A stretch of 64,000 bases of DNA from Stenotrophomonas maltophilia (GTDB taxonomy: Bacteria > Pseudomonadota > Gammaproteobacteria > Xanthomonadales > Xanthomonadaceae): NCBI RefSeq assembly GCF_002138415.1, contig NZ_CP015612.1:536001-600000 (forward strand), read 5' to 3'. Below the pieces are notes generated by a model. That model saw nothing but the letters and a program-made list of their open reading frames with translations, was not told where the DNA came from and did no database searches. This document shows positions 12,064 to 41,317 of this stretch, in pieces; positions within the stretch are counted from its first letter, which is position 1, and the number at the start of each line of letters is the position of its first letter. The translations under genes were made by a program, and so were the position numbers.

Positions 12064-12107
12064 GAACCCCCCCACTACGGTAGGGTGGGCCGATGCCGCG
12101 CTGCAGC

Positions 12108-12135
12108 TTGGCGTCGCCGCAGATTTGATTACACT
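12108..12135 (+). promoter_or_regulatory. Candidate sigma-70 promoter of fahA-maiA
   Basis: TTGGCG (12108-12113) and TACACT (12130-12135) are separated by 16 bases and lie 37 bases before the fahA start. The match is moderate and read from sequence only. Confidence 0.4.
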
Positions 12136-12171
12136 TGAAACTTGTTTGCCCACGACTCCGGACACCCACCC

Positions 12172-21451: not shown

Positions 21452-21574
21452 GCGGCAGATCGGTACCGATTGCTACTGAATCCCGGTTTATTCGCGTCAA
21501 AGCTTGTTAAGGCGGCGCTGATAGACTCCCGCTCCTTTGACGGCGCCGTACGTCGGCGCCATTCAGGAAACGAC

Positions 21575-22768: not shown

Positions 22769-24163
22769 ATGACTCGTCCGGATTCCATTTCGGCTGCTGC
22801 TTCGGTGCGCGCGTTGACGTGGCTGCGCAGCCAGCCGTGGCTGCGTGTTGCCTTTCATCTGCTGCCCATCGGGCTGCGCGAGCGCGCATTGCGGCTGTTC
22901 TCGCGCCGGTTGCAGGCACAGACACGATTTGTGCGCACCGCAGCCTGGCAGAGGCAGCTGCGCTCTGCCGATGAGGTGGTTGTCCGTGTTGCAAGCAGTG
23001 CGGCAGGACAGCCCGGGGTCAACATCCTGGGCTACATCCACGGCCAGTTCGGGTTGGCCGAAGCTGCCCGCAGCTATGCGCGCGCGCTGATTGAACAGGG
23101 TGTGCCGGTTGCGCTTCGCGATATCGATCTTGGCTTACCGAACGCTCGCGACGAGCATGTGCTGGATGCCTATATCGATGATCGGATGCCGCATGCGGTC
23201 AGCATCATCTTCATCAATCCGGATTATCTTGAGCAGGCCTTGGCCAGTATTTCGCTGGCCAGGGGGCAGGGGCGTTACCTGATTGCCTGTTGGTTCTGGG
23301 AGCTCGAACGCCTCCCTGACAGCTGGTTGCCGGCGCTGGAGCTGGTGGACGAGGTACTGGTGGCAACGCGCTTCATCCAGGGTGCAGTGGCGGAAGCAAC
23401 CCGCAAGCCGGTGACGCGTATCCCGATGCCGCTTGGTGTTCTGCACGACAGCGGGCTGCAGCGTGCGGACTTCGGCTTGTCGGAGGATGCATTCATCTTC
23501 CTCACGTCCTTCGATTTCAGCTCGCGGATGGAGCGCAAGAATCCGGAGGCCGTGATCCGCGCATTTCGGGAGGCATTTCCGCCAGAGCGCCGTGATGTGC
23601 GATTGCTGGTCAAGAGCAGCAACGGTCATCGCTTCCCGCATCTGCTCAAGCACCTCCTGGTTCTGGCCGGCAGTGACGAGCGCATCATCATCCGTGACGA
23701 AGTCATTGCACGCGAGCACCTCAATGCGCTGCAGCGATGCTGTGACGCCTATGTGTCGCTTCATCGCGCCGAAGGCTTCGGCCTGGGATTGGCCGAGTGC
23801 ATGGCCATGGGCAAGCCGGTCATCGCCACCGCGTGGTCGGGCAATATGGAGTTCATGGATGCCGATTCGGCCGCGTTGGTCGATTTCACACTTGTTCCGG
23901 TGCGCGACGGCGAGTACCCCGCAGGTAAGGGCCAGCGCTGGGCGGACGCGCATGTTCCTGCGGCCGCGGCGTGGATGCGCCGGTTGGCCGACGACCCGGC
24001 CTTCGCCACGGAGCTGGGGCTGGCAGGACGCGGGCGTGTCGAGGCAGTTCTATCCTCCCACGCCGCCGCCCGCAGCGTCGTTGAACGCCTTCGCCAGATC
24101 CAGGCAGGCGTCCGCACAACGCAGGACATCAATGCAGACAATGAAGTACGAGGCAGGCAATGA
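22769..24163 (+). CDS. Glycosyltransferase family 4 protein
   Basis: 464-residue cytoplasmic GT4 enzyme. The N-terminal ~70 residues are Arg/Leu-rich and may be a membrane-associating tail. The GT-B domains follow, starting NILGYIHGQFGLAEAARS, with the retaining-enzyme EX7E signature in RAEGFGLGLAECMAMGKPVI. It is the first gene of the O-antigen transcript, 18 bases after metB, and its stop overlaps the start of wzm (ATGA). It is likely an early or chain-building transferase for the D-rhamnose polymer; the exact sugar and linkage cannot be read from sequence. Confidence 0.85.
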   Translation: MTRPDSISAAASVRALTWLRSQPWLRVAFHLLPIGLRERALRLFSRRLQAQTRFVRTAAWQRQLRSADEVVVRVASSAAGQPGVNILGYIHGQFGLAEAARSYARALIEQGVPVALRDIDLGLPNARDEHVLDAYIDDRMPHAVSIIFINPDYLEQALASISLARGQGRYLIACWFWELERLPDSWLPALELVDEVLVATRFIQGAVAEATRKPVTRIPMPLGVLHDSGLQRADFGLSEDAFIFLTSFDFSSRMERKNPEAVIRAFREAFPPERRDVRLLVKSSNGHRFPHLLKHLLVLAGSDERIIIRDEVIAREHLNALQRCCDAYVSLHRAEGFGLGLAECMAMGKPVIATAWSGNMEFMDADSAALVDFTLVPVRDGEYPAGKGQRWADAHVPAAAAWMRRLADDPAFATELGLAGRGRVEAVLSSHAAARSVVERLRQIQAGVRTTQDINADNEVRGRQ

Positions 24164-24954
24164 GTGACATGATCCGGTCCATCTGGGCCTACCGGTATTT
24201 CATCCTTTCGTCGATCAAGAATGAACTGCGGGTCCGCTTCATCCGCAGCAAGCTCGGCGCATTGTGGATGATCATCCACCCGCTGATGCAGGTCGTCATC
24301 TTTGCCACCATCCTGTCGGAGGTACTCTCGGCGAAGCTGCCCGGCATCGACAACAAGTACGCCTATGCGTTGTACCTGATGGCGGGGACGCTGTGCTGGA
24401 GCATGTTCTCCGAGACGGTCGGCAAATGCGTGTCGCTGTTCGTGGACAGCGGCAACCTGATGAAGAAGATGGCGTTCCCGCGCATCTGCCTGCCCTTCAT
24501 CGCCGGCGGCACGATGCTGGTCAACAACCTTCTGCTGCTCGTTGCGATCTTCGTGGTGTTCGCCGTGCTCGGCCACTACCCGGGAGCGCAGGCGCTCTGG
24601 CTGCCGATCCTGATCCTGATCACGCTCTTCTTTGCGATGTCGATCGGGTTGCTGTTGGGTGTGCTGAACGTGTTCATGCGTGACATCGGGCAGGTGGTGC
24701 CCGTCGTGCTGCAGGCGCTGTTCTGGCTGACGCCGATCGTCTACAACATCCGCATCCTGCCTGAGCACGTGCAGGGCCTGTTCAAGTTGAATCCGTTGTA
24801 TCCGCTGGTGAGCAGCTACCAGAACGTTCTGCTCTACGACCAACCCCCGGTGTGGGCTGACCTGGCCTGGCTGATTGGCGCCGCATGCGTGCTGGCGCTG
24901 GCATCTTTGATCGTTTTCCGTCGTGCCAGTCCCGAGATGGTGGATGCACTATGA
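24160..24954 (+). CDS. wzm: O-antigen ABC transporter permease Wzm
   Basis: 264-residue inner-membrane permease with six hydrophobic segments and the ABC-2 family pattern: VRFIRSKLGALWMIIHPLMQ (cytoplasmic N-terminal amphipathic part plus first helix), KKMAFPRICLP and FWLTPIVYN before the last helices. Paired with the following Wzt ATPase, it exports the completed undecaprenyl-diphosphate-linked O polysaccharide across the inner membrane. It starts inside the previous stop (ATGA) and ends overlapping the wzt start in the same way, so it is tightly coupled in the operon. Confidence 0.92.
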   Translation: MSDMIRSIWAYRYFILSSIKNELRVRFIRSKLGALWMIIHPLMQVVIFATILSEVLSAKLPGIDNKYAYALYLMAGTLCWSMFSETVGKCVSLFVDSGNLMKKMAFPRICLPFIAGGTMLVNNLLLLVAIFVVFAVLGHYPGAQALWLPILILITLFFAMSIGLLLGVLNVFMRDIGQVVPVVLQALFWLTPIVYNIRILPEHVQGLFKLNPLYPLVSSYQNVLLYDQPPVWADLAWLIGAACVLALASLIVFRRASPEMVDAL

Positions 24955-26192
24955 GTGGTGAGTTGCGTGTTGAAGGCGTAGGCAAGGCCTACCGGGTGTG
25001 GGGCAGCGAATGGCTGCGCGCAGCGAGCTGGTTCGGCCTGCCAACCCGCCCGCGTGAAGAGCATTGGGTTCTCCAGGACGTGTCGTTCTCGATTGCGCCC
25101 GGCGAAGCGGTGGGTGTGATCGGGCAGAATGGCGCCGGCAAGAGCACGTTGCTCAAGCTGATCACCGGTACCGCACAGCCGACCGAGGGGAGGGTCACGC
25201 GTACCGGCCGGGTCGCGGCCATCCTTGAGCTGGGAATGGGCTTCAACCAGGACCTGACGGGCAGGCAGAATGCCTTCCATTCCGCGGGACTGATGGGGTA
25301 CAGCCAGGAGCAGATCGCCGAAGCCATGCCGGGGATCGAGGCGTTCGCGGAGATCGGTGAGTACTTCGACGAGCCAGTGCGGACGTACTCAAGTGGCATG
25401 CAGGTGCGCGTCGCATTCGCGGTCGCAACGGCGTTCACGCCAGACCTGCTGATCGTCGACGAAGCCCTTTCCGTGGGTGACAGCTACTTCCAGCACAAGA
25501 GCTTCGACCGCATGCGGCGCTTCCGCGAGGAAGGCACCTCGATCATGCTGGTTTCCCACAGCCCCGGCGACGTCAAGGCCTTGTGTGACCGGGTGATCCT
25601 GCTCGACAAGGGGCAGGTGCTGAAGGACGGTGCGCCGGACGAGGTGATCGATTTCTACAATGCGCTGATCGCCCGCAAGGAGAACGAGAAGCTCAGCGTT
25701 GAGCAACGACGTGACGAGTCGGGTTGGGTCACGACTCGCAGTGGTAGCGGCCAGGCAGTGGTCAGCAGCCTCAAGCTGGTCGACGCAGCCACGGGCAGCG
25801 AGGTTGCCCTGGCGATGGTGGGACAGCAGCTCAGGCTGGTGCTCGAAGCAGAAGTGCGGGCGCCACTGCCCAGTCTGGTGCTGGGCTTCATGATCCGCGA
25901 CAAGCAGGGGCATGTGGTCTGGGGCAGTAATACCTGGCACACAGAGCAGGTCCAGAGCAACGTATCGGCAGGCGAGCGGCTGCGCTACACGCTGGATTTC
26001 ACCTGCCGCATGGGGCCGGGTTCGTACTCGGTTTCACCAGCCCTGGTCAGCAGTGACACGCACATGATCGACAACTTCGAATGGGTCGACAATCTGCTGG
26101 TCTTCGAAGTCATGAACGCGGATCACCCCATGTTTATCGGCAGCAACTGGCTGGATGCTGAGTTTGCTGTCGAACGTAGCACCGTCATCTGA
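24951..26192 (+). CDS. wzt: O-antigen ABC transporter ATPase Wzt with carbohydrate-binding domain
   Basis: 413-residue ATPase. The nucleotide-binding domain (residues ~1-245) has Walker A GQNGAGKST near residue 58, the signature YSSGMQVRVAFAVA and Walker B LLIVDEALSVGD. Residues ~270-413 form a C-terminal beta-sandwich like the Wzt carbohydrate-binding module (LVLGFMIRDKQGHVVWGSNT, then GPGSYSVSPALVSSDTHMIDNFEWVDN). Long Wzt proteins of this type recognise a modified non-reducing end of the finished chain before export. The next gene encodes a methyltransferase with a coiled coil, which supports that model. The start at 24951 overlaps the wzm stop; the frame's earlier ATG lies inside wzm. Confidence 0.92.
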   Translation: MSGELRVEGVGKAYRVWGSEWLRAASWFGLPTRPREEHWVLQDVSFSIAPGEAVGVIGQNGAGKSTLLKLITGTAQPTEGRVTRTGRVAAILELGMGFNQDLTGRQNAFHSAGLMGYSQEQIAEAMPGIEAFAEIGEYFDEPVRTYSSGMQVRVAFAVATAFTPDLLIVDEALSVGDSYFQHKSFDRMRRFREEGTSIMLVSHSPGDVKALCDRVILLDKGQVLKDGAPDEVIDFYNALIARKENEKLSVEQRRDESGWVTTRSGSGQAVVSSLKLVDAATGSEVALAMVGQQLRLVLEAEVRAPLPSLVLGFMIRDKQGHVVWGSNTWHTEQVQSNVSAGERLRYTLDFTCRMGPGSYSVSPALVSSDTHMIDNFEWVDNLLVFEVMNADHPMFIGSNWLDAEFAVERSTVI

Positions 26193-26207: not shown

Positions 26208-27611
26208 ATGTCCAAGCTCATTTCCTACGCCCAGAATTTTGAAGACATCATCCTGTGGCGTGTACTGGGTCACATTGAAGGTGGCCGCTACATTGATGTC
26301 GGCGCGCAGAGTCCGGATATCGACTCTGTCAGCCTCGCTTTCTACGAGCGTGGCTGGCGTGGCATTCATGTCGAACCCACCCAGCACTACTCGGATCTGC
26401 TGCGAGCGCGGCGTCCGGACGAGCAGGTGTTGCAGGTGGCCGTCACCGATGCTCCCGGCGAGCTCCGCTTCTTCGACGTCGCCGACACCGGTTTGAGCAC
26501 GCTGGATGAGCAGATCGCTCAAGAGCATCGCGATGCTGGCTTCAACGTCAGTGAAGTGCGTGTCCCGGCAGTAACCTTGGACAGTGTGTTCGAAATGGCG
26601 GGCCCTGGTGAGATCCACTGGCTCAAGATTGATGTCGAGGGCGCCGAGCGGGAGGTCATCGCAGGTTGGAACGGGTCGCGTCGGCCCTGGGTACTGGTAA
26701 TCGAGGGTACACGGCCGCAGAGTCCGGAACTGAACCACCATCAGTGGGATCCGATGGTCCTGGCCAAGGGGTACTCCTATGCGTACTTCGACGGGCTGAA
26801 CCGCTTCTATGTAAGCGACGCGCATCCTGAGCTGGCCGCCGCGCTGACGTGCGGGCCGAATGTGTTCGATGATTTCGTCCTGGCGCCACAATCGGCGTTC
26901 TGTGCGGCCGCCAATGCAGTTGCTGCCGAAGCCATGGAGCAGCAGAGAGCATCTGCTGCTGAAGCAGCAGCGCAACAGCGGTCCGCCGCTGCCGAAGTCG
27001 AGGGGCAGCAGCGTGCGCAGTTGGCCGAAGCGTCCCGGAAGATCGAACTGCTGGAGGGAGAGCTGCAGGCAAAGCGTGCTTCAGAAGCCGCCTTCCAGCG
27101 CGAGAAGAACCTGATCGTGGAAGCGGCCGGAGAGTATCGCGAAGAGTTCCAGCGGGCAGTGGCACAGAATCAGGTGTTCGCCGTTGAGATCGGACGTCGC
27201 GATGCTGAAGTCGTGCGCCTGAATGAGATCGTGCACGCGCTTCTGACCAGCACCTCGTGGCGGATCACCCGACCATTGCGCGGGCTGAAGTATCTGGTCA
27301 CGCAGCCGACGATGTTTGCGCGTCGCGTGGTGCTCGCGGCCATGCGTCGTGTTGCCCGGCGCCCCGCAGTCGCGCGTCCGCTGAACGCGCTGTTGAAGCG
27401 TCTGCCGCGGCTGCACGCCAAGCTGATTTCGGTGGCGGTCAACAACCGGATCATCGCCCAGGTGCCGGGAGCCATGCAGCATGCAGGCCTGGTCGGCGGG
27501 GTTGGTTCGTTCGAGGGTCTCACCGAAGTGCAGGCTCTGGAGCAGCTGTCCATGCGCGGACAGGCGTTCTACACGGATATCGCAGCTGGCAATCGCAGGG
27601 AGAGTAGATGA
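26208..27611 (+). CDS. FkbM-family methyltransferase with coiled coil (candidate chain terminator)
   Basis: 467-residue protein. Residues ~1-235 form an FkbM-type SAM methyltransferase: ISYAQNFEDIILWRVL start, GGRYIDVGAQSPDIDSVS SAM loop, and HWLKIDVEGAEREV. Residues ~240-345 are an Ala/Glu/Gln heptad-like coiled coil with near-repeats (EQQRASAAEAAAQQ, RSAAAEVEGQQ). The C-terminal ~110 residues are basic and include TSTSWRITRPLRGLKYLV, a segment often found at the ends of polysaccharide glycosyltransferases. The layout parallels WbdD of E. coli O8/O9a, a methyl-capping chain terminator with a coiled-coil ruler. The gene lies between wzt and a tandem GT4 polymerase candidate and overlaps the latter by ATGA. 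Confidence 0.82.
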   Translation: MSKLISYAQNFEDIILWRVLGHIEGGRYIDVGAQSPDIDSVSLAFYERGWRGIHVEPTQHYSDLLRARRPDEQVLQVAVTDAPGELRFFDVADTGLSTLDEQIAQEHRDAGFNVSEVRVPAVTLDSVFEMAGPGEIHWLKIDVEGAEREVIAGWNGSRRPWVLVIEGTRPQSPELNHHQWDPMVLAKGYSYAYFDGLNRFYVSDAHPELAAALTCGPNVFDDFVLAPQSAFCAAANAVAAEAMEQQRASAAEAAAQQRSAAAEVEGQQRAQLAEASRKIELLEGELQAKRASEAAFQREKNLIVEAAGEYREEFQRAVAQNQVFAVEIGRRDAEVVRLNEIVHALLTSTSWRITRPLRGLKYLVTQPTMFARRVVLAAMRRVARRPAVARPLNALLKRLPRLHAKLISVAVNNRIIAQVPGAMQHAGLVGGVGSFEGLTEVQALEQLSMRGQAFYTDIAAGNRRESR

Positions 27612-30124
27612 TGCGGATTCTTCTGGACCTGCAGGGTGCCCAAGGTGAAAGCCGCCTGCGAGGCATCGGCCGTTACTCGTTGTCATTGGCCCTGTCGGTA
27701 GCACGCAATGCGCGTGGCCATGACGTCCACATTCTGGTCAATGGCGCCTTCCCCGAAGGCATCGATCACATCCGCGAGGCCTTCGCCGGCCTACTGCCGA
27801 GGGCCAGCATCCACGTGCTGCACGTTCCGCTGCCCGTTGCCCAGCGTGAGGGCGAGAACGCGCTGCGTCGGGCTCAGGCCGAAATCGTCCGTGAGGCTGC
27901 AATTGCGACGCTGCAGCCGGATATCGTGCATATCTCCAGCCTGTTTGAGGGCTTTGCCGACAATGCGGTGGGAACCATCAGCCAGCACTGCCGCGTGCCG
28001 ACGATCGTCACGCTGTACGACATGATTCCGTTGATGAATCCGAAGCTGTACCTGGACCCCGATCCGCGCTATCGCGAGTTCTATCACGGCAAGCTGGAAC
28101 AGCTGGCGCGTGCCGACGCACTGGTGGCCATCTCGGAAAGCTCGGCGCAGGAAGCGCACGACGTTGCCGGATTCCCGGCAGAACGCATCTTCAACATGTC
28201 TGCAGCCTGCGATCCGGTGTTCCGTCCGATGGATACCCTGGACTCCCGGCGCATCCTGACCCGAGTTGCGTTTGGGGTGACCGCCGGCTTCGTGCTGTAT
28301 ACCGGTGGCGCGGACCGCCGCAAGAATCTGCCGCGTCTGGTGGAAGCCTACGCCGGACTGGACGCGCAGCTGCGCGCCGGGATGCAGCTTGTGTTCGCCG
28401 GACATATGCCCGGACCGCACGTGGATGAACTGCAGCGGCTGGCGACGTCGCTGGGCTTGGCGGAGAGGGACCTGGTCTTCACCGGGTATGTTTCCGATGA
28501 GCAACTGGTCGCGCTCTACAACGAATGCAGTCTCTTTGCGTTTCCTTCGTGGCACGAGGGCTTCGGCCTGCCCGTGCTGGAGGCGATGGCCTGCGGTGCC
28601 GCAGTCATCGCGTCGGACGCTTCGAGCATCCGTGAGATCGCAACGGAGCCCACCGCGTTGTTTGATCCCATGGATGTCGATTCGCTCCGTGCGCGCATGG
28701 CTCACTTCCTCTCCAGTCCGGAAGAGAACCAGCGCCTGCGTGACTATTCACTGGAGAGGGCGCAGGCGTTCTCGTGGGACAGGGTGGCCTCGGTCTTCGT
28801 CGATGCATGCGAACACGTGGTTGGACTGGGACTGGAGCGCTCCTCGCCCGAGGCAGCGATCAACACCGCGACGACCCGCCTGGGGACGCTCGCCGATGTT
28901 CAGATCACCGACCTGCTGAGTGCTGCGGATGCGCTTGATCGCAGCTGTGCGGCTGAGCCGCAGCTGCTGGTTGATGTGACCGAGCTGGCGGACAAGGATC
29001 TGCGCACGGGCATCCAGCGCGTCACGCGTGCAGTGGTGGCTGAGTGGGCGAAGCTTGCGCCGACGGGCTATCGGCTGCAGTTGGTACGCCTGGATCGCAG
29101 TTCCGGGCAGTACGTCTGCGCCAACATGTATGCGGCAACGCTGTTGGGTGTGCAACAGCAGGCCGATGTGCCGGTGGTCTGCCACGCGGGTGACGTGTTC
29201 CTGGGATTGGACTTGACCGGCTCTGCGCTGAGGCTGGGAAGCGAGTGGTTCCGCTACCTGCGCCGCAGTGGTGTGAAGATCAGCTTCGTGGTCTACGACA
29301 TCCTGCCGGTCAGGCATCCGGAATGGTGGCCGGGCGGCGGTGGTCAGCACCATGAAGCGTGGCTGCGTGAAATCCTTGGCTGCGCCGACCAGCTCATCTG
29401 TATTTCCAGGGCCGTGGCCGATGATGTCCGTGCCTGGATGGAAGAGCAGCAGGTGCAAAGCCCGGCCTCCATTGACTGGTTCCACCTTGGCGCCGATCTG
29501 GATGGCAGCGTGCCGTCCAAGGGGCTTCCCGATGATGCGGGGCAGGTGATCGAGCGGATTGCTGCCGCTCCCAGCTTCCTGATGGTTGGGACGATTGAAC
29601 CCCGAAAAGGTCATGAGATGGTGCTGTCGGCCTTCGAGACGCTCTGGGCGGAAGGGCATGACGTGAATCTGGTCATCGTCGGTCGCAAGGGGTGGTTGGT
29701 TGACGCGTTGTGCAGCCGGTTGGCAGGCCATGCGCGACTCGGTCGCCAGCTGTTCTGGTTCGAGAGCGCCAGTGACGAGTACCTGGACGCCATTTACGCC
29801 AATTCAAGCTGCCTGATGGCTGCCTCGGAAGGTGAGGGGTTCGGGTTGCCGCTGATCGAGGCAGCGCAGCGTGGTCTGTCGATCATCGCCCGCGATATTC
29901 CCGTATTCAGGGAAGTGGCGGGTGGGCATGCACACTTCTTCTCGGGGCACGGCGACGCCCCCATCGCGCAGGCGATCCGAGAATGGTTGCCCCTCCACGC
30001 CCAGGGCGCAGAGACCCGTTCAGACCGCATGCCCTGGCTGACCTGGACGCAGAGCGCCGAGCAGTTGCAGCGGGTGTTGCTGTCAGGCGGCTCTCTGTCT
30101 GAACGATCCCCTCATTGTTCCTGA
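27608..30124 (+). CDS. Tandem two-domain GT4 glycosyltransferase (candidate O-chain polymerase)
   Basis: 838-residue protein made of two complete GT4 units. The first (~1-400) has MRILLDLQGAQ...RGIGRYSLSLALS and the EX7E motif in WHEGFGLPVLEAMACGAAVI. The second (~440-838) has LLVDVTELADKDLRTGIQRV and EGEGFGLPLIEAAQRGLSII. Both catalytic signatures are intact, so two linkages could be made by one polypeptide, as in the similarly sized WbdA of E. coli O9a. It starts at ATGATG overlapping the previous stop and is last in the left transcript. With GDP-D-rhamnose genes just downstream, a D-rhamnan polymerase is the most economical reading (inference). Confidence 0.85.
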   Translation: MMRILLDLQGAQGESRLRGIGRYSLSLALSVARNARGHDVHILVNGAFPEGIDHIREAFAGLLPRASIHVLHVPLPVAQREGENALRRAQAEIVREAAIATLQPDIVHISSLFEGFADNAVGTISQHCRVPTIVTLYDMIPLMNPKLYLDPDPRYREFYHGKLEQLARADALVAISESSAQEAHDVAGFPAERIFNMSAACDPVFRPMDTLDSRRILTRVAFGVTAGFVLYTGGADRRKNLPRLVEAYAGLDAQLRAGMQLVFAGHMPGPHVDELQRLATSLGLAERDLVFTGYVSDEQLVALYNECSLFAFPSWHEGFGLPVLEAMACGAAVIASDASSIREIATEPTALFDPMDVDSLRARMAHFLSSPEENQRLRDYSLERAQAFSWDRVASVFVDACEHVVGLGLERSSPEAAINTATTRLGTLADVQITDLLSAADALDRSCAAEPQLLVDVTELADKDLRTGIQRVTRAVVAEWAKLAPTGYRLQLVRLDRSSGQYVCANMYAATLLGVQQQADVPVVCHAGDVFLGLDLTGSALRLGSEWFRYLRRSGVKISFVVYDILPVRHPEWWPGGGGQHHEAWLREILGCADQLICISRAVADDVRAWMEEQQVQSPASIDWFHLGADLDGSVPSKGLPDDAGQVIERIAAAPSFLMVGTIEPRKGHEMVLSAFETLWAEGHDVNLVIVGRKGWLVDALCSRLAGHARLGRQLFWFESASDEYLDAIYANSSCLMAASEGEGFGLPLIEAAQRGLSIIARDIPVFREVAGGHAHFFSGHGDAPIAQAIREWLPLHAQGAETRSDRMPWLTWTQSAEQLQRVLLSGGSLSERSPHCS

Positions 30125-30212: not shown

Positions 30213-32187
<1,975 letters not shown>

Positions 32188-32339: not shown

Positions 32340-34589
32340 ATGTACCCGTATCTCATGACGGTGCTCAGCGTAGCAGCGTGCTCCTTCCTCCTGCTTGTCA
32401 GTGGATCGCTATTCGTTCGTATGAACGATGGAGTGCTGGTGGCTGCCGGTCGACAGGGAGCAGTCGTAGCCACCGCCAGTCTCGTTCTTGGCGTAGTCGC
32501 CATGATGCTGCTGGTGATCAACTTTAACCTTTGGTTTCCGGGGAACTGGATCTACTACGGGCTGGTGCCCGTTGGTGCCTATGGTCTGCTCAGGCTGGTC
32601 AGGCTGCGACGGACTGGTGGTACTGATCTACTTCTATGGACGCTGGTACTGGCCGCAGCAGTTGCTGTCATTGCGTTGGGCGTTGGCATCCGGCTGGACG
32701 CCGCGAACTACTGGCTTGTTGAAACCTCAAACCACGACACACTCTTTTACTTCGAAGGTTCTCGCTGGGCTCCGCAGCACCCGATATACGTCTCCCCAGA
32801 TCTAGTTGCTGACACGCTTAACCTCGGTGGATGCCGATCGGGCGCGGTCTACATCGGTAATGATTGTCCCGTCTATCGGGGCGGAAGCTACTCGGTGCTT
32901 GGGATGGCGCTGGCGTATGGTGGAGGCGGTACAGCGAACGAGATGATCATCGCCTCAGCGTTGGGCGCCCTTTTCATCGGTCTGGGGCTGCTCCCGGTTG
33001 CCGCGCTGAGTCGATCCGGTTCCAGCGTCGCGCGATTCCTGTGGCTGCCGGTGCTAGCTGCACTGATTGTAGTGATCTATTTCTCTCCCAGCATGCTGGC
33101 TGCGGCGATCAATAGCAACGTGGCGACTACCATCGGCGCGTCTGCTGCTGCAATGCTGCTGGCCATCGCGGCATCCGCCGATCGATGCTGGTGGCGTAGA
33201 GCATTGGTGCTGGGCCTGGGTGCTTCCCTGGCGGCGCATTGCTATGGCGAAGCCGCCGCAGCAGCGGTAATTTTTGCTGCATTTGGCGTTGCTTCCGGCG
33301 CTGTGTACAACCGCTCTTGGGCAGAGTTCATCAAGGGGGGGCTGCTTTGTGCCGCAGCGTTCTTCCTCGCATCCAACGTCCTGGTCCTGGAGCTCCTGCA
33401 ATCTGCCAGTGACGTCGAAGGAATTGCAAGCGGCGGCACATGGGAGGGGCGTTACCTGCATGCCAATCCGCTGACCTGGTTGGCATCCCCGTTTGCCGGG
33501 ATGGTAGTCAATGGTAATCCTTACGTCAGCCATCGCATGCTCAACATTGGCTGGCTCCTGACCCTGCTTGTCGGGCTGGGATGTGCGAGGATCCTCTCGA
33601 CCCGCGTGGCAATGATTTCATTCCTGTTGGTGTCATCGCTCCTGATCGGATTCGTCGAAATCCGGGATTACGCATATGGTGAGCACAAGGTTGTGCAGAT
33701 GATAGGCCCTGCTGCATGTGTGCTCGCGGCGGTGCTGATTCTCAACTGCCTGCGTATTTTTGGAGAAACCGATCGGAACACGAGAGTACGCGGAGGTGCC
33801 CTTGTTTATGCGGGCGTTGTCTTCCTGCTGTTGCTCTTGGCCATCGTCAATCACGTTCGGCCATCAATGCATGTCGTGGAAGGATGGAAGGGCATGCACG
33901 GCCTTTCGCTCGACTTTGAGCGTGATCTTCCAAAGGGAGCTGCGCAGGAGTGGGTGTTGGATGACGCGGGCACTGAAGGTGTTGAGCGATTCCAGAAGTC
34001 GCACTACGTTTCTTATCTCGCGCATGAACGGAAGTCGCACGCTTACCTGCCGAACCTCGACGCAGAAGGCATGCGTGGAGGTTATGCGAGAATTCCCCTC
34101 GGCGACACTTTGAAGAATGCAAAACTCCCTCGCTGGGTTGTTCAGCTGAAATCATTCACCGGGGTTAAGTCGCCTTTCGAGTATCCGAAAGGCTCAATGA
34201 AGGAGTCCACCGAATACAATGTGATCGATCTTGCCAAGTCCGGCTCTGTTGTGGCCGTATCCGGGGCAGGATGGTTGCCTTGCAGGGTTGAAGGGTGTCC
34301 AGTGACATCGGGGTTTGAAATCGAGGCGATCGTCTCGGCGCCTCCGACCGAACGCTGCCATCTGACGGTGTATGCCGACCATGCACCTGAGTACCCCTCT
34401 GTGGAAACGTCCATCCACAGTGGCGATACGCTATTGAAAGTGGGTAGCCTCTTGCCTAACGGGATGAAAATTCCACTCGTTGCAGGCTGGCAGCGGATCC
34501 GGCTGGATGATCCGCAGGGTACACCTGGTGCTCTATGGATGGTGCACAAGATTTCCAGTACCTGTCATACAGAAGATGCAGGACCCTAG
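32340..34589 (+). CDS. Large polytopic membrane protein, candidate GT-C transferase
   Basis: 749-residue protein that I do not recognise. About 12-14 hydrophobic segments fill residues 1-510. A ~75-residue non-membrane loop after the fourth segment has SNHDTLFYFEGSRW and three cysteines (GGCRSG, GNDCPVY). Residues ~510-749 are soluble. Many helices plus an acidic motif in the first large outer loop and a C-terminal periplasmic domain is the GT-C layout used by enzymes that take sugar from polyprenyl phosphate. The next gene encodes a flippase-like four-helix protein, and the locus also holds a HAD-UbiA protein. A Wzy polymerase is a less likely alternative, because export here uses Wzm/Wzt. 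Base composition is lower in GC than the flanks, suggesting transfer. Confidence 0.6.
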   Translation: MYPYLMTVLSVAACSFLLLVSGSLFVRMNDGVLVAAGRQGAVVATASLVLGVVAMMLLVINFNLWFPGNWIYYGLVPVGAYGLLRLVRLRRTGGTDLLLWTLVLAAAVAVIALGVGIRLDAANYWLVETSNHDTLFYFEGSRWAPQHPIYVSPDLVADTLNLGGCRSGAVYIGNDCPVYRGGSYSVLGMALAYGGGGTANEMIIASALGALFIGLGLLPVAALSRSGSSVARFLWLPVLAALIVVIYFSPSMLAAAINSNVATTIGASAAAMLLAIAASADRCWWRRALVLGLGASLAAHCYGEAAAAAVIFAAFGVASGAVYNRSWAEFIKGGLLCAAAFFLASNVLVLELLQSASDVEGIASGGTWEGRYLHANPLTWLASPFAGMVVNGNPYVSHRMLNIGWLLTLLVGLGCARILSTRVAMISFLLVSSLLIGFVEIRDYAYGEHKVVQMIGPAACVLAAVLILNCLRIFGETDRNTRVRGGALVYAGVVFLLLLLAIVNHVRPSMHVVEGWKGMHGLSLDFERDLPKGAAQEWVLDDAGTEGVERFQKSHYVSYLAHERKSHAYLPNLDAEGMRGGYARIPLGDTLKNAKLPRWVVQLKSFTGVKSPFEYPKGSMKESTEYNVIDLAKSGSVVAVSGAGWLPCRVEGCPVTSGFEIEAIVSAPPTERCHLTVYADHAPEYPSVETSIHSGDTLLKVGSLLPNGMKIPLVAGWQRIRLDDPQGTPGALWMVHKISSTCHTEDAGP

Positions 34590-34637
34590 TCCTACTCAGT
34601 TTCAATTCGCTTGACGCTATTAAAGAGGCAGTTTTCC

Positions 34638-34988
34638 ATGCAACTTCTGCTTGTCTTCGGACTGGTCCTTCTAGGCGCTTGTGGCACGGTTCTGCTCAAA
34701 ATCGGGGCTGAGCGTGTGAGCTATGCCGATGGTCTGCTGCCGATGCTGCTCACCGCCGTCAGGAATGCGCCTCTGGTGTGCGGTTTTATTTTGCAGATGA
34801 TACCGCTGGTGTCTTGGGTGGTGCTGCTCAAGTTCATGCCGCTGACCAAGCTGCAGCCGATGATCGCCCTGACCTATGTGGTGACACCGGTGTTGGCGGT
34901 GTTGTTCCTGGGAGAACATATCGGGCCGTTGCGTATGGCTGGTATCGGCCTGATTGTCCTTGGCGTAATCTTGGTGAGCGCGAGCTGA
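34638..34988 (+). CDS. Four-helix EamA/SMR-like membrane protein (candidate lipid-sugar flippase subunit)
   Basis: 116-residue protein with four hydrophobic segments: MQLLLVFGLVLLGACGTVLL, LVCGFILQMIPLVSWVVLL, a third around IALTYVVTPVLAVLFL and a fourth LRMAGIGLIVLGVILV. The pattern is that of the small multidrug resistance/ArnE-ArnF group, several of which move undecaprenyl-phosphate sugars across the inner membrane. The ATG at 34638 follows AAAGAGG; the upstream TTG at 34611 is rejected because it has no such site. It lies two bases before the following GT4 gene and 48 bases after the polytopic membrane protein, consistent with one transcript and one pathway. Drug efflux is possible but poorly supported by context. 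Confidence 0.75.
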   Translation: MQLLLVFGLVLLGACGTVLLKIGAERVSYADGLLPMLLTAVRNAPLVCGFILQMIPLVSWVVLLKFMPLTKLQPMIALTYVVTPVLAVLFLGEHIGPLRMAGIGLIVLGVILVSAS

Positions 34989-34990
34989 GC

Positions 34991-36127
34991 ATGAAGATCT
35001 TGATCGTTCTGACCTACTATTCCCCCTACATGAGTGGGGTAACCGAATTCGCTCGGATGCTGGCGGAGGACCTTGCACAGCGACATCACGTTACGGTACT
35101 GACCACCCAGCACGATCCGGGGCTGCCGGAGGATGAAATAGTGAGCGGCGTACGCGTGGTGCGTGCCCCGGTCTTCGCTCGCATGCACAAGGGCGTACTG
35201 AGCTGGAAGTTCATCACCTCGTTCCGCCGCCTTGCCCGGCAGCACGATGTGGTCAACCTGCATATGCCGATGCTCGAATCTGGTCTGCTATCGATGCTGG
35301 TGGAGCGCCGCAAGCTGGTGGTGAACTACCAGTGTGACATGGCTGTGGTGGGAGGATTGCTGGACCGGATCGCGGTCAATCTCACCCGTATATCCTGCTG
35401 GTTTGCCACGCGGCGCGCCCGGGACATTGGTGTCCTCACCCATGATTACGCCAGTTCATCGACTTGGTTGTCCGGTACCCGTAGCAAGCAGCACGAGGTA
35501 CTGGCCCCAATGAAGGCGATGCCCTGGCGCGATAGCCAGACGAATACTGATGGTGTGTTCCGGTTCGGCTTCGTTGGACGTTTTGTCGCCGAGAAGGGCC
35601 TGCCTGTGCTGCTTGAGGCATTTGCCGAAGTCCATGCGCGACATGGCGAGCGTGTGCGTCTGGTGCTGGTGGGCGATACCCACAACATCGCCGGTGGCGG
35701 AATCATGGATGCCATCCATGAGAACATTGCGGCGCTCGGAGATGCGGTGGAAGTGCGAGGACGAGTCAGCGAGCAGGAGCTTCAGGCCTTCTACGCGGAC
35801 CTGGATGTTCTCGTCCTGCCCAGTGTCAATCGTTATGAGGCCTTTGGCATGGTGCAACTGGAGGCGATGCTCAGCGGTGCACGGGTAATTGCTTCCAACC
35901 TGCCTGGTGTACGGACAATTGTGCAGAACAGCGGCAATGGTGAAGTGGTGGCTATTGGCGATGCTACTGCCTTGGCGCAGGCAATGGAGCGATTGCTTGC
36001 TACTCGGGAAGGCGTGACCCGGGTCTGTGTCCGGGAACGAGCATTACAGGCCTACCCGCTGCGGCGCTTCTTCGACCTGCAGGAAGCTATGTTGCTGGGC
36101 TACCCGGTGCAGGCTACGTCGGACTGA
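34991..36127 (+). CDS. Glycosyltransferase family 4 protein
   Basis: 378-residue GT-B enzyme starting MKILIVLTYYSPYMSGVTEF, the usual GT4 N-terminal strand and Gly-containing loop. The acceptor domain ends near residue 190. FGFVGRFVAEKGLPVLLEAF opens the nucleotide-sugar domain, and the EX7E signature appears in YEAFGMVQLEAMLSGARVI. No membrane segment. It follows the flippase-like gene by two bases. The donor is unknown; it could build a branch or the linkage region of the O-antigen. Confidence 0.85.
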   Translation: MKILIVLTYYSPYMSGVTEFARMLAEDLAQRHHVTVLTTQHDPGLPEDEIVSGVRVVRAPVFARMHKGVLSWKFITSFRRLARQHDVVNLHMPMLESGLLSMLVERRKLVVNYQCDMAVVGGLLDRIAVNLTRISCWFATRRARDIGVLTHDYASSSTWLSGTRSKQHEVLAPMKAMPWRDSQTNTDGVFRFGFVGRFVAEKGLPVLLEAFAEVHARHGERVRLVLVGDTHNIAGGGIMDAIHENIAALGDAVEVRGRVSEQELQAFYADLDVLVLPSVNRYEAFGMVQLEAMLSGARVIASNLPGVRTIVQNSGNGEVVAIGDATALAQAMERLLATREGVTRVCVRERALQAYPLRRFFDLQEAMLLGYPVQATSD

Positions 36128-36293
36128 GTCCATGGTCGTGCGCTAAGGTCTGATCACATCTACTTGCGGTTGTAACTTGTTCAGGGCACTCTGACTAAGG
36201 GTCGGTGCCCCCGTCGTGTCATCTTCACCGCCCTTCCTTGCGGCAGCCGATGTGCTGCCGTCGATTGCATTTGCGCAACGGCTGGAGGGTAGG

Positions 36294-36999
36294 ATGCCGG
36301 AGATGTCGGAGCAGTACGGCCAAGAATACTATAGTGGCAACGGTCAGGATGGTGATCGTCCTGCCCTCAAGTTATTCACGCGTTTGGCCAAGCGTTATCT
36401 ACCCGCTGGGCGTATTCTGGATTTCGGCTGCGGTCCAGGCTTTTTTCTGGATCATCTACGGCATCATTTCGAAGCAATGGGCATCGAACAGAGCCCATGG
36501 GCCAGTGCCGAGGCGAGGCGCCGCACCGGAGTCGCCGTGCATGCTTCGCTTGACGAGGTGGCCGATGCCAGCATCGACGGCGTTGGTGTCAGTTCATGTA
36601 ATCGAGCACATCGAGGATCCAGCGCTTGAGCCGATACTTGGCCAATGGCATCGGGTTCTGCGCCCGGGTGGTCGCGCCTTGGTGGTCACGCCCGATGCAA
36701 AGGGATTCGCGCATCGTCGCAAGGGCAGCAAATGGATCGCGTTCACTGACCCAACCCACATCAACCTGAAGTCCCATGTGGAATGGGAGGCCTCGTTCAG
36801 TGCGGCCGGATTCATTGTCCAGCACCGTTTTGCCGATGGCCTTTGGGACTTTCCCTACATCCTTCCATGGATGGGCAAGGCCGAAGTCTTTCTGCTCGGC
36901 TGGCCAACCCTGGCGCAATTCTTGCTGGCCCGCCCACTGCTGCCCGCAGGCAGCGGCGAATCGGTCATTCTGGTGCTTGAGCGGCGCGAGATTGCCTGA
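36294..36999 (+). pseudogene. SAM-dependent methyltransferase, interrupted by a +1 frameshift
   Basis: Two overlapping frames together encode one class I methyltransferase. Frame one (from ATG 36294, with GGAGGG upstream) gives MPEMSEQYGQEYYSGN and the SAM loop ILDFGCGPGFFLDHL. Frame two (from about 36587 to 36999) gives VSVHVIEHIEDPALEPILGQ, then RVLRPGGRALVVTPD and the rest of the fold. The join lies at about 36582-36587, where one extra base in GGCGTTGGTGTC separates the frames; removing it gives a normal DGVVSVHVIEHIED motif. The protein would otherwise be about 235 residues. Either the gene is inactivated or the base is a sequencing error in a T/G run. The 3' end is 8 bases from the convergent HAD-UbiA gene. 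Confidence 0.8.
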
Positions 37000-37007
37000 A
37001 CCAGAGT

Positions 37008-38438
37008 TCAGATCGCAGCGAGAACCGACAAGCCTCCAACGAGCACTGTGACCAGGCTGCCAGGATCCTTCACCGCGAACACAACAGGGTCATCGTGCAT
37101 CTGGCCGCGGTGAGCCAGCAGCCACGCGCGGCAGATCCAGTAAAGCAGGATCGGGCAAAGCAGCCAAAGGAATAGCGGGTGACCATAAAGGCTCTGGCTT
37201 TCGGGTGCGTTGATGTACAGGCACAGCACCAGCACTGAGGCCAGACCCGAAGCGGTACCCAGGTTCTGCACCAGGCCAAGGTCCTCGACGTGATAGCCAC
37301 GCCCGCTGGGCTTCTGTTTGCCACTTGCCAGTGTCAGGCGCAGCTCCGTGTACCGCTTCAGCATGGCCAGACTGAGAAAGATGAACATCGAGAACGTCAG
37401 CAACCAGAACGACAGCGTCACATCGATCGCCGCCGCGCCACCAACAATACGAATGGTGTACAGGGCGGCAAGCATCACCACATCGATCATCACGATCTGC
37501 TTGAGTCGCAACGAGTAGGCAAGGGTAAGGCAGAAGTAGATGCAGAGCACCAGCAGGAACGACGGTGCCACCAGTGCGGCCAGTGCGAAGCCGGCAACGG
37601 TAAGCACCGGCGTTGCCAGCAGCCCCGAGCGCAGATCCAGCCGGCCGCAGGCGAATGGGCGCGTGCGCTTACGTGGATGTTGGCGATCTGAATCGAGATC
37701 AAGCAAGTCGTTGAAGAGGTACACGCCCGATGCGCACAAACCGAATGCGAGGAAGGCTAGTGCTGCCTCAAGCAACGCATCGAATTCAAGGAAGCGGTGG
37801 CTGGCGAGCAATGGCACGAAGACCAGCAGGTTCTTCAGCCACTGGTGGATGCGCATTGCCTTGAGCCAGGCACGAAGGCCGCCACTTTCGCGAGGCCAAT
37901 GAGCAGCAAGTTGTGAGCAACCTGCTGCAGCGCGCGCCACGCCCGCGCTTGCATTGACCACCCATGACGAATGGGCGTGCTTCCAGATTGCAAGATCGAC
38001 CCTTGCATTGCCCATGTAGTCAAAGCCGCGCTCGCCGAACTGCTTGACTAGCAGCTCGGCTTTGCGATGCCCCGCTAGGTTTGTCTCGCCATCACTGCAA
38101 AACACATCGTCGAACACGCCCAAGTGGCGAGCGATCGGCTCTACCAGTTCTGCATCGGATGCGGTGCACAGTACGCGCCGACGATCGCCGCTGGCGCGCA
38201 GAAGATCAACTACGCGTCGGTCGTAGGGCAGCAATGCAGGATCGCCCGCACCGTGCACGGCAAGCTGGCGCTTCAGATGGGCCTTGCCGCGCAGCAACCA
38301 GAACGGCAACACGAACAGCATCCAGGGCTGGCGTGCCAGCATCCGCAGGAAGGTTTCATAGAGCAGATCGCTGCGCAGCAGAGTGCCGTCCAGATCAACA
38401 CACAGCGGCCGTGAGTGGCCGACACCGGATGCTGTCAC
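37008..38438 (-). CDS. HAD phosphatase-UbiA prenyltransferase fusion (DPPR synthase-like)
   Basis: 476-residue fusion. Residues ~1-185 are a HAD-type phosphatase: LCVDLDGTLLRSDLLYE motif I, LCTASDAELVEP, and YMGNARVDLAIWKHA as the late acidic motif. Residues ~190-476 are a UbiA-family membrane prenyltransferase with eight or so helices. Its motifs are NDLLDLDSDRQHPRKRTRPF and LAYSLRLKQIVMIDV, which resemble decaprenyl-phosphate phosphoribosyltransferases more than the ubiquinone UbiA. The family reaction moves phosphoribose from PRPP to polyprenyl phosphate; the fused phosphatase could then remove the 5-phosphate. Start is GTG at 38438, three bases after the xanB stop, so it is co-transcribed with xanA-xanB. 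No DprE1/DprE2-like epimerase genes are in the window. Confidence 0.82.
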   Translation of the reverse strand: MTASGVGHSRPLCVDLDGTLLRSDLLYETFLRMLARQPWMLFVLPFWLLRGKAHLKRQLAVHGAGDPALLPYDRRVVDLLRASGDRRRVLCTASDAELVEPIARHLGVFDDVFCSDGETNLAGHRKAELLVKQFGERGFDYMGNARVDLAIWKHAHSSWVVNASAGVARAAAGCSQLAAHWPRESGGLRAWLKAMRIHQWLKNLLVFVPLLASHRFLEFDALLEAALAFLAFGLCASGVYLFNDLLDLDSDRQHPRKRTRPFACGRLDLRSGLLATPVLTVAGFALAALVAPSFLLVLCIYFCLTLAYSLRLKQIVMIDVVMLAALYTIRIVGGAAAIDVTLSFWLLTFSMFIFLSLAMLKRYTELRLTLASGKQKPSGRGYHVEDLGLVQNLGTASGLASVLVLCLYINAPESQSLYGHPLFLWLLCPILLYWICRAWLLAHRGQMHDDPVVFAVKDPGSLVTVLVGGLSVLAAI

Positions 38439-38441
38439 CGA

Positions 38442-39851
38442 TCAGGCTCCCGCGCGGCCATACTGGTCTTCGAAGCGCACGATATCGTCCTCGCCCAGAT
38501 AGCTGCCGGACTGCACTTCAATCAGCTCCAGCGGCAGCTTACCCGGGTTCTTCAGACGATGGGTCACGCCAAGCGGAATATACGTACTCTGGTTCTCCGA
38601 CAGCAGGATCACCTCATCGCCACGCGTCACCTCGGCCGTACCACTGACCACGATCCAGTGCTCGGCACGGTGGTGGTGCATCTGCAGGCTCAGCGTTGCG
38701 CCCGGCTTGACAGTGATGCGCTTGACCTGGAACCGCGCGCCGTTGTCGATCGAGTCGTAGGCGCCCCAGGGGCGGTAGACCTTGCGGTGGGCGGCGGCTT
38801 CACTGCGGCCATCGCGCTTGATCTGGCCGACGATCTCCTTGACGTCCTGCACGCGGTCCTTGTGGCCGACGAACACGGCATCATCGGTTTCAACGACCAC
38901 CACGTCCTGCAGGCCGACCATCGCGATTAGGCGATTGCCGTAGGCATAGCTGTCCTTGCAGTCCAGGGCGATCACATCGCCGTGGCAGGCATTGCCATCG
39001 GCGTCCTTGTCGGACACCTCCCACAGGGCTGACCACGATCCGACGTCGTTCCACTCGGCATCGAGCGGTACCACGGCGGCGTCGGCGGTCTTTTCCATCA
39101 CCGCGTAGTCGATGGAGTCGTTCGGGCTGGCGGCGAAGGCCTCTGCATCCAGGCGGATGAAGTCGTTGTCGCGGGCAGCCTTGTCGAGCGCCTGGCGGCA
39201 CGCGGCCAGGATCGCCGGCTGCAGGGCTTCCAGCTCCTTCAGGTAGCGCGAGGCCTTGAACAGGAACATGCCGCTGTTCCAGAAATACTCGCCGGAAGCG
39301 ACGTACTGTTCGGCGGTGGCCAGATCGGGTTTCTCGACGAAACGGTCGACGGCGCGCACGCCTTCGCCGGCAGCGGCCTTGATATAGCCGTAGCCGGTTT
39401 CCGGTGCGGTCGGCACGATGCCGAAGGTGACCAGCTTACCGGTCTCGGCAGCGATGGCGGCCTGCTTGACCGCTGCGTGGAAGGCCGCTTCGTTGCGGAC
39501 CACGTGGTCGGACGGCAGCACCAGCAGCAGGACATCGTCGCCGTTGGCCAAGGCCTGCAGCGCGGCGATCGCGATGGCCGGGGCGGTGTTGCGGCCCACG
39601 GGCTCGAGGATCAGCGCCTGCGGCAGCACCTTGCACTCGCGCAGCTGCTCGGCGGCCATGAAGCGGTGCTCCTGGTTGGCCACCACGATCGGTGCCGCAC
39701 CGGCTATGGAAGCGACGCGCTTCCAGGTGGCCTGCAGCATCGTGTCATCACCGACCAGCGGCAGGAACTGCTTTGGATAGGCTTCGCGCGACAGCGGCCA
39801 CAGCCGGGTACCGGAGCCACCTGAAAGGATGACGGGAACAATTGGGGTCAT
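38442..39851 (-). CDS. xanB: Mannose-1-phosphate guanylyltransferase/mannose-6-phosphate isomerase
   Basis: 469-residue type II bifunctional enzyme making mannose-6-phosphate and GDP-mannose. The N-terminal pyrophosphorylase domain has [26 protein letters not shown] and FVEKPD. The C-terminal cupin isomerase domain (~350-469) has [11 protein letters not shown] and [21 protein letters not shown] chose ATG 39851, with AAAGGA just upstream, over the in-frame ATG at 39893, which would run into xanA. It is second of three genes on the minus strand (xanA-xanB-HAD/UbiA). It supplies GDP-mannose to Gmd/Rmd and, in xanthomonads, to xanthan-type polymers. Confidence 0.95.
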
Positions 39852-39867
39852 GCGACGTGTGTCCTTT

Positions 39868-41226
39868 TCAATGATTGGCTGGCGTGCCGCCAATCAGGGC
39901 GGTCAGCTCGCGGATTCGGTCCTGCAGCAATCCTTCATCGCCACGGGTCTCGATGTTCAGACGCAGCAGCGGTTCGGTATTGGAGCTGCGCAGGTTGAAG
40001 CGCCATTCGGCAAAGTCGGCGCTGACGCCGTCGGTGCGATCGAGGACCGGCTGCTGAGCCTCGAAATGTTCCAGCACGCGCGCGACCGTGGCCTTGGCAT
40101 CGTCCACGCGGAAGTTGATCTCGCCGCTGCACGGATAAGCCTTCATGCGGTCGGCCACCAGCTCGCCCAGCGACTTGCCGGTGCTGGATACCAGCTGTGC
40201 GATCAACAGCCAGGGGATCATCCCCGAATCGCAGTAGGCGAATTCGCGGAAGTAGTGGTGCGCGCTCATTTCACCACCGTAGATGGCGTCTTCGGCGCGC
40301 ATGCGTTCCTTGATGAACGCATGGCCGGTCTTGCTCATGATCGGCACGCCGCCGGCCTGCTCGACCATTTCCACGGTGTTCCAGGTCAGGCGCGGGTCGT
40401 GGATGATCTTGCCACCCGGCTGGCGGGCCAGCAGGGCGGTGGCCAGCAGGCCGACGAGGTAGTAGCCCTCGATGAAGTTGCCTTCGGCATCGAAGAAGAA
40501 GCAACGGTCGAAGTCGCCATCCCAGGCGATGCCGAAGTCGGCGCCATGGGCGCGCACGGCATCACGCGTGGCCGCGCGGTTTTCCGGCAGCAGCGGATTG
40601 GGGATGCCGTTCGGGAAATTGCCGTCGGCTTCATGCTGGATGCGGATGAACTCGAACGGCAGATGCGGAGCCAGCTGGTCGATGACCAGTCCCGCACCGC
40701 CGTTGCCGGGGTTGGTGACGATCTTCAGCGGCTTCAGGCTGGCGAGGTCGACATAGCCAAGCAGGTGCTGGATATAGGCCGACTTGTCGGCATCCTGGGT
40801 CACGGTTCCAGTGCCGTTGCCCAGCGCGGCATCGGAGGCGGCGAAATCGCGGATATCGAACAGGCCGGTGTCACCGCTGATCGGCTTGGCACCGTCGCGC
40901 ACCAGCTTCATCCCGTTGTAATCCATCGGGTTGTGGCTGGCGGTGACCATGATGCCGCCGGCGGCATGGCGGTGGAACGTCTGGAAATAGACCTCTTCGG
41001 TGCCGCACATGCCGATGTCGATGACATCACGGCCGCTGGCGGTCAGGCCCTCGATGGCAGCCTGCAGCAGCGCAGGGCTGCTCAGGCGGATGTCGTGTCC
41101 AACCACCACCGGTCCCGGGCCCAGCAACGCGGCAGTGCCAGCGCCGATACGGCAGGCAAGGCGTTCATCCAGTTCATCCGGAACGCGACCACGGATGTCA
41201 TAGGCCTTGAAACACGGGAGCGTCAT
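39868..41226 (-). CDS. xanA: Phosphomannomutase/phosphoglucomutase
   Basis: 452-residue alpha-D-phosphohexomutase interconverting hexose 6- and 1-phosphates. The phosphoserine loop is [14 protein letters not shown], the metal loop is [12 protein letters not shown], the sugar-binding loop contains GGEMSAHH, and the phosphate-binding loop is NLRSSNTEP. The bifunctional mannose/glucose enzyme of S. maltophilia is called SpgM, and xanA is the Xanthomonas name. ATG 41226 is preferred over the TTG one codon earlier; AAGGA lies eight bases upstream. It feeds XanB (mannose-1-P) and RmlA (glucose-1-P), linking both rhamnose pathways of this window. Confidence 0.95.
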
Positions 41227-41317
41227 CAATGCAGTCCTTACACAGGTTGACCCCGGATTATAGCGACAGGAGCTGCAAGGACGAGTGATCGATCCCCAAA
41301 CCCGAACAGGGTCATGA

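Follow-up and report, generated by a model that had tools for sequence, protein, structure and literature searches.

The mycobacterial decaprenylphosphoryl-ribose/arabinose pathway comprises the decaprenyl-phosphate phosphoribosyltransferase (DPPRS) Rv3806c, Rv3807c, DprE1/DprE2, Rv3789 and Emb/Aft. A three-component pentofuranose pathway has been described for Citrobacter youngae O1 and O2, and its synthase, phosphatase and GT-C transferase (GT136) were proven biochemically in Citrobacter (Kelly et al. 2024, PMC11127046). According to the accessible part of that paper, the small protein ORF14 is related to ArnE and its flipping is without experimental demonstration; in O2, a single short-chain dehydrogenase/reductase (SDR), ORF13, converts ribofuranose (Ribf) to xylofuranose (Xylf); and Stenotrophomonas loci with alpha-linked ribofuranose fall into one group of such systems. 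Supplementary files aside, this was the only directly relevant publication that we found on the pathway in Stenotrophomonas. Here we analyse the O-antigen locus within 64,000 nucleotides of Stenotrophomonas maltophilia (NZ_CP015612.1, positions 536,001 to 600,000; hereafter the window), where an original prediction had proposed that three genes, encoding a HAD-UbiA fusion, a small membrane protein and a 749-residue membrane protein, build, flip and attach a lipid-linked pentofuranose. All three open reading frames (ORFs) were found as predicted (Table 1), and the locus combines a synthase, a small flippase and a large membrane transferase candidate with an ABC exporter, as in the three-component system of Kelly et al. 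The window holds a further member of this known kind of system, whose variant part is the transferase candidate. Because the scheme is the one published for C. youngae, its principle is not new.

With moderate confidence, we read the locus as a C. youngae O1-type system for periplasmic side-chain decoration. In this scheme the UbiA part would move 5-phosphoribose from phosphoribosyl pyrophosphate (PRPP) to polyprenyl (probably undecaprenyl) phosphate and the HAD part would take off the 5-phosphate; the small protein would then flip the lipid to the periplasm, and the 749-residue protein would, prior to ligation, attach the pentofuranose to the O-polysaccharide that Wzm/Wzt exports. The identities of the synthase and exporter genes, the catalytic residues and the gene linkage are read directly from the sequence, and from these we infer flipping, transfer, the sugar and the acceptor; for the last, a D-rhamnan is the predicted candidate, and gmd and an Rmd-like gene are present. 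As far as the accessible part of PMC11127046 describes the C. youngae loci, they have in common with the window the HAD-UbiA fusion with the same residue spacing, the small ArnE-like flippase, a large polytopic protein with a periplasmic loop and a soluble tail, the Wzm/Wzt exporter, manB/manC and gmd/rmd, and O1 likewise has no recognised epimerase. They differ in that the window synthase lies on the opposite strand beside manC, and that the window protein has 749 residues, ORF12 about 652, with four helices before the large loop (in a topology placed by hand) in place of one. Moreover, the DxxE-Y motif of ORF12 (D31, E34, Y35) was not found: the 749-residue frame holds no D-x-x-[DE]-Y anywhere, the nearest being D133-T-L-F-Y. 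What the window shares with the mycobacterial pathway is the UbiA-type phosphoribosyltransferase and the use of a lipid-linked pentofuranose outside the cell, whereas its phosphatase is fused and of HAD type, no DprE1 was found, and the flippase and transferase are of other kinds.

The HAD-UbiA protein scored 668.5 bits against NCBIfam NF006088 (PRK08238; the ORF15 type), exceeding the cut-off of 351, and matched Pfam PF01040 (80.4 bits) and PF12710 (32.6 bits) above cut-off; three decaprenyl-phosphate phosphoribosyltransferase models gave 136-176 bits, under their cut-offs. Its best solved relative was the DPPRS structure 8j8j (E 1.7e-30). The phosphoribosyltransferase-like motifs noted in the original prediction were present in the UbiA part, with N243, D244, D247, D251, R362 and E365 identical in all 67 rows of an alignment (the window protein and the proteins of 66 of 80 loci, the other 14 having been lost by the ORF caller), and Asp15 of the HAD part was kept in 64 of the 67 rows (two gaps, one Gln). 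Compared by spacing, without aligning the ORF15 sequence, these seven positions match residues mutated in C. youngae ORF15, namely the Mg/PRPP residues N247, D248, D251 and D255, plus R366, E369 and HAD D18, as listed in the accessible part of PMC11127046. Because of the family scores, the structural relative and the active-site residues, synthesis of polyprenyl-phospho-ribose is supported, as had been predicted, and we consider it very probable. Membership in the wide UbiA superfamily (PF01040) would also suit an enzyme that prenylates another acceptor, of quinone, haem or lipid type, unrelated to the O-antigen; however, the best characterised relatives of the protein are decaprenyl-phosphate phosphoribosyltransferases, the haem o synthase model gave at most 37 bits and the UbiA model 24, the active-site residues match, and the genes sit in O-antigen loci. 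A quinone or haem prenyltransferase was rejected on the model scores and residues, and an unrelated acceptor of any of these types is highly improbable. The gene is on the minus strand, convergent with the plus-strand genes (the plus-strand reading of the same segment holds 9 stops), and was the sole match of its kind in the host genome (4,668,743 bases, chromosomal, a single contig); its closest named record was a Stenotrophomonas metagenome-assembled genome (99%). Separately, a protein related to the UbiA half, with 31.9% identity over residues 188-417, is encoded in a short phage record (MT837543.1, 5060-5746).

The small protein, predicted to be ArnE-like, passed the cut-off of 28.2 bits for EamA (PF00892) and gave 32 bits with the ArnF model (cut-off 99) and 18.7 bits with the ArnE model, both under the cut-offs. 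These profiles support an ArnE/ArnF-type flippase candidate, and flipping of polyprenyl-phospho-ribose is its likely role.

The sugar itself would depend on epimerases. Searches by tblastn agreed with the predicted lack of DprE1 and DprE2 in the window; in the whole host genome the best DprE1 result was a partial match of 20.7 bits, the DprE2 search having covered the window only. Among the 80 HAD-UbiA loci, 69 had a DprE1-like and 67 a DprE2-like gene by tblastn (58 and 42 by clustering). The L040 query protein scored 373.6 bits with the DprE1 model (cut-off 500) and its neighbour 176.4 bits with the DprE2 model (cut-off 250), both under the cut-offs; PF04030 was dropped as an uninformative test for DprE1, because the Stenotrophomonas DprE1 has no match to that model. 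Within the window genome and its relatives, DprE1 was directly beside HAD-UbiA in 25 of 30 loci, and the five without an adjoining DprE1 were the window, three loci with a 749-type gene, and L009. The surroundings of L009 (L127 10259-14819, in another Stenotrophomonas-type genome) combine a synthase and an ArnE-like gene with an SDR and a gene for a long membrane protein, ordered as in a C. youngae O2-like system; the predicted sugar of this set is xylofuranose. The long membrane protein of this set is unrelated and has a weak DUF2142 match.

Arabinofuranose made via DprE1/DprE2 was rejected, there being no DprE1 in the genome. The same pathway could nevertheless end in xylo- or arabinofuranose if an unlinked or unrecognised SDR epimerised the sugar. 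The precedent is ORF13 of C. youngae O2 (PMC11127046, accessible part), and the host genome has several SDRs at 29-55 bits to the L127 SDR, the window Rmd-like gene (42.8 bits) among them; these generic SDRs, the best at 54.7 bits, could hide an epimerase, which counts against ribose as the final sugar. None of them is close, however: the SDRs of L080 and L127 share 72% identity (491 bits), whereas the window Rmd-like protein is 29% identical to that of L127 (59 bits). Equating the L127 and L037 SDRs with ORF13 from gene order, we found no close relative of either in the host genome (best 54.7 bits at 30% identity, and 27.5 bits). An ORF13-like role for the Rmd-like gene is not favoured, as it overlaps gmd, resembles GDP-6-deoxy-mannose reductases and is 28-29% identical to the L080 and L127 SDRs. 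With no DprE1 relative in the host genome either, we regard epimerisation as unlikely. The flippase type went with the epimerase: of the loci, ArnE-like flippases occurred in 5 of the 11 that lack DprE1 versus 1 of the 69 that have it (Fisher 1.1e-4) and GtrA-like genes in 0 of 11 versus 42 of 69 (Fisher 1.1e-4), tests that ignore kinship among loci that are related, in part cut by contig ends, and of the 749 type in L035 and L036. That the flippase type tracks the epimerase is a pattern and no proof. Since there is neither a DprE1 nor a close relative of the sister-system SDR, ribofuranose is our best guess, in line with the original preference for ribose over arabinose, and the sugar probably stays ribose. 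Relatives of a 491-residue protein of L080 were sought in plasmids and none were found.

Hydropathy gave 12 helices for the 749-residue protein. In a 14-helix topology, placed by hand with the help of a low-confidence model, an 83-residue loop (117-199) and a 245-residue tail (505-749) lie on one common side, as the predicted large loop and soluble tail. This side also carries N131-H132-D133, Cys165, Cys176 and the loops with Tyr302, W368/Y372/W380 and Y444-x-YGEHK450; the conserved E128, N131-H132-D133, E304 and E448-H449-K450 are all on the outer side, and the invariant arginines are on the side opposite to loop 117-199. This sidedness would be as expected of a periplasmic transferase with a lipid donor. 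Several results weigh against such a role. Conserved polar residues were not significantly enriched on the outer side (Fisher 0.46 and 0.10). No Pfam family exceeded its cut-off (best DUF420, 14.3 versus 30.5 bits), NCBIfam gave no match, and neither did the PDB, with the single sequence or with a profile. When its profile was compared with 47 further groups of long membrane proteins encoded close to HAD-UbiA genes, the probability reached 4.4% at best, and structure prediction failed both for the whole protein (AlphaFold2, 4 sequences; predicted local distance difference test (pLDDT) 35.4, predicted template modelling score (pTM) 0.25) and for the tail (5 sequences; pLDDT 42.0, pTM 0.40). A search by motif for GT136-like proteins in the fetched loci found none.

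This orphan sequence and the two failed predictions would suit another function, for example that of a polymerase- or ligase-type membrane enzyme, with synthase and flippase as proposed and the transferase encoded elsewhere. Yet a 749-type gene adjoins the flippase and synthase genes in all six loci examined, the conserved acidic, Asn, His and Lys residues are outer-sided in the hand topology, and an ABC-exporter (Wzm/Wzt) pathway needs no Wzy polymerase (established knowledge; also PMC11127046, accessible part). We therefore hold such a different function to be rather improbable, and a pentofuranosyltransferase to be the probable identity of the 749-residue protein. A GT-C fold is a candidate only: the original interpretation is partly supported, in that synthesis, the flippase candidate, linkage and ribose stood, and the GT-C role, with no family or PDB match and with both models failed, stays a proposal, as do the D-rhamnan acceptor and co-transcription. 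The protein resembles no matched family and may represent a new transferase family. The odds seem about even that it is the founder of a periplasmic pentofuranosyltransferase family using polyprenyl-phospho-ribofuranose, separate from GT136 and present in Gamma- and Alphaproteobacteria, with a DUF212 protein performing the 5'-phosphatase step in Marivivens.

Full-length relatives of the 749-residue protein were found in four other Stenotrophomonas-type genomes (G001, G056, G057, G561) and on a plasmid of Marivivens sp. JLT3646 (Alphaproteobacteria). By search set, these were 4 of 121 relatives (G001, G056 and G057 besides the window genome), 4 of 398 genomes of the order (including G056 and G561; a 107-position, 21.8-bit fragment in G549 was set aside) and 1 of 72,556 plasmid records. 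In the class (1/369) and phylum (1/398) the sole match was the window genome itself; genomes around Rhodobacterales-type loci gave 0/20 and 0/345, without a positive control, and viral contigs and phage records gave none. Distant relatives can be missed, since in many of these searches no more than the top two or three candidates of each genome were scored. The order 749-type gene, flippase, GT4, synthase was the same in six of the six examined loci with a full-length gene (the window, L035, L036, L125, L126 and, on the Marivivens plasmid, L124), a conserved linkage of the three genes that supports the original proposal. The plasmid locus also has pmm, manC, Wzm, Wzt, FkbM, two-domain GT4, gmd and Rmd-like genes. 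Its UbiA protein is stand-alone, with 284 residues (NF008977, 224.7 bits, cut-off 234), and the next gene, which overlaps it, encodes a DUF212 divergent-PAP2 protein (L124 19387-19806; PF02681, 115.7 bits, cut-off 26.5). This protein, which is not known to us to have an activity, is a candidate non-homologous replacement of the HAD 5'-phosphatase, and its gene, standing at the place of the phosphatase, supports phosphoribose chemistry. The same locus also encodes an aldose-1-epimerase-like protein (11608-12360; PF01263, 78.9 bits), its gene lying between those for gmd and the Rmd-like protein.

In comparison with L036, L125 and L126, the window synthase (91, 91 and 93% identity), flippase (87, 87 and 91%), gmd (97%) and manC (95-97%) were conserved, and the 749-type protein was not (30, 30 and 28%); FkbM was 46% identical to L125 and L126. 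The Shigella gtr system attaches a hexose from UDP-glucose with proteins unrelated to those of the window. As in its gtrA/gtrB/gtr(type) glucosylation, donor synthase and flippase are conserved and the transferase is variable (PMC3259042, accessible part). Against divergence as a sign of acceptor specificity stands the two-domain glycosyltransferase (41, 41 and 34%), as does the Rmd-like gene, which at only 50-51% has diverged like a serotype gene. Because both of these diverged too, block gene exchange accounts for the divergence no less well than acceptor specificity, and because the three loci are close kin, the comparison amounts to one event. The Rmd-like gene is 51% identical to its L036 counterpart, yet the overlapping gmd is 97% identical, which suggests either mosaic exchange or an altered product. 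If our reading is right, one conserved donor module of phosphoribosyltransferase, phosphatase and flippase is paired with unrelated transferases and with no epimerase, one SDR or DprE1/DprE2, three states that together with the transferases vary bacterial surface sugars; an orphan membrane family would gain a testable substrate, and so would DUF212, as a non-homologous phosphatase predicted for the same step.

The O-antigen locus is bounded by metB (21470-22750) and the etf genes (41361-43048; label read from sequence), an interval that is the lipopolysaccharide (LPS) locus site in xanthomonads and S. maltophilia R551-3 (PMC2238763). As far as the accessible part of that paper describes these loci, they share with the window the chromosomal place, an exporter at the metB side and a 481-residue 'prenyltransferase' gene at the etfA side, but have an oxidoreductase and an SDR beside the prenyltransferase, both absent from the window, which has the 749-residue and ArnE-like genes. 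The plus-strand order is GT4, Wzm, Wzt with a carbohydrate-binding tail, FkbM methyltransferase, two-domain GT4, gmd, Rmd-like SDR, 749-residue protein, small flippase-like protein, GT4 and frame-split methyltransferase; on the minus strand follow phosphomannomutase, manC and HAD-UbiA. The gap between manC and the HAD-UbiA gene is 3 bp, and this tight spacing makes the predicted co-transcription with xanA/xanB plausible; a promoter/terminator scan gave no promoter-like site.

Table 1. Features of the O-antigen locus, in window coordinates
Feature	Position	Strand	Evidence
Wzm, ABC exporter permease	24160..24954	+	PF01061 89.7 bits
Wzt, ABC exporter ATPase with C-terminal carbohydrate-binding domain	24885..26192	+	PF14524 Wzt_C 97.9 bits, PF00005 83.2 bits
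FkbM methyltransferase with long coiled-coil-like middle, candidate chain terminator	26208..27611	+	PF05050 99.6 bits; coiled coil judged by eye
Two-domain GT4 glycosyltransferase, candidate backbone polymerase	27608..30124	+	PF00534, two stretches
gmd, GDP-mannose 4,6-dehydratase (backbone sugar supply)	30225..31265	+	TIGR01472 479.5 bits, cut-off 415
SDR reductase, probably Rmd (GDP-D-rhamnose), 17-bp overlap with gmd	31249..32187	+	PDB 4lw8 'putative epimerase' E 2e-87; 6x3b GDP-6-deoxy-D-mannose reductase E 8.5e-38
749-residue polytopic protein, candidate pentofuranosyltransferase on the O-chain	32340..34589	+	Conserved motifs, topology, conserved neighbours; no Pfam, NCBIfam or PDB match
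Small ArnE/ArnF/EamA-like membrane protein, candidate polyprenyl-phospho-ribose flippase	34638..34988	+	PF00892 37.3 bits; ORF open from TTG 34611
GT4 glycosyltransferase directly after the flippase gene	34991..36127	+	PF13692 104.7 bits; ORF open from 34778, start at Met 34991 inferred
S-adenosylmethionine (SAM) methyltransferase gene split over two frames	36205-36999	+	N-terminal half in 36216-36629, C-terminal half in 36205-36999
HAD-UbiA fusion, 476 residues: putative polyprenyl-phosphate phosphoribosyltransferase (PPPRS, UbiA part) and N-terminal HAD 5'-phosphatase (PRP)	37008..38438	-	NF006088, PF01040, PF12710, 8j8j, residues
manC/xanB, mannose-1-phosphate guanylyltransferase	38442..39893	-	PF00483, PF01050
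Phosphomannomutase/phosphoglucomutase (xanA)	39868..41229	-	PF02878-PF02880

Two further genes of the locus deserve mention. The FkbM protein has its FkbM domain followed by a long Glu/Ala/Gln-rich, coiled-coil-like stretch, and its neighbour is the Wzt with a Wzt_C domain; in this it looks like a chain-terminating molecular ruler for ABC-exported O-chains. The split methyltransferase had no match in L036, L125, L126 or L124, and its counterpart in L035 is one intact ORF of 248 residues.

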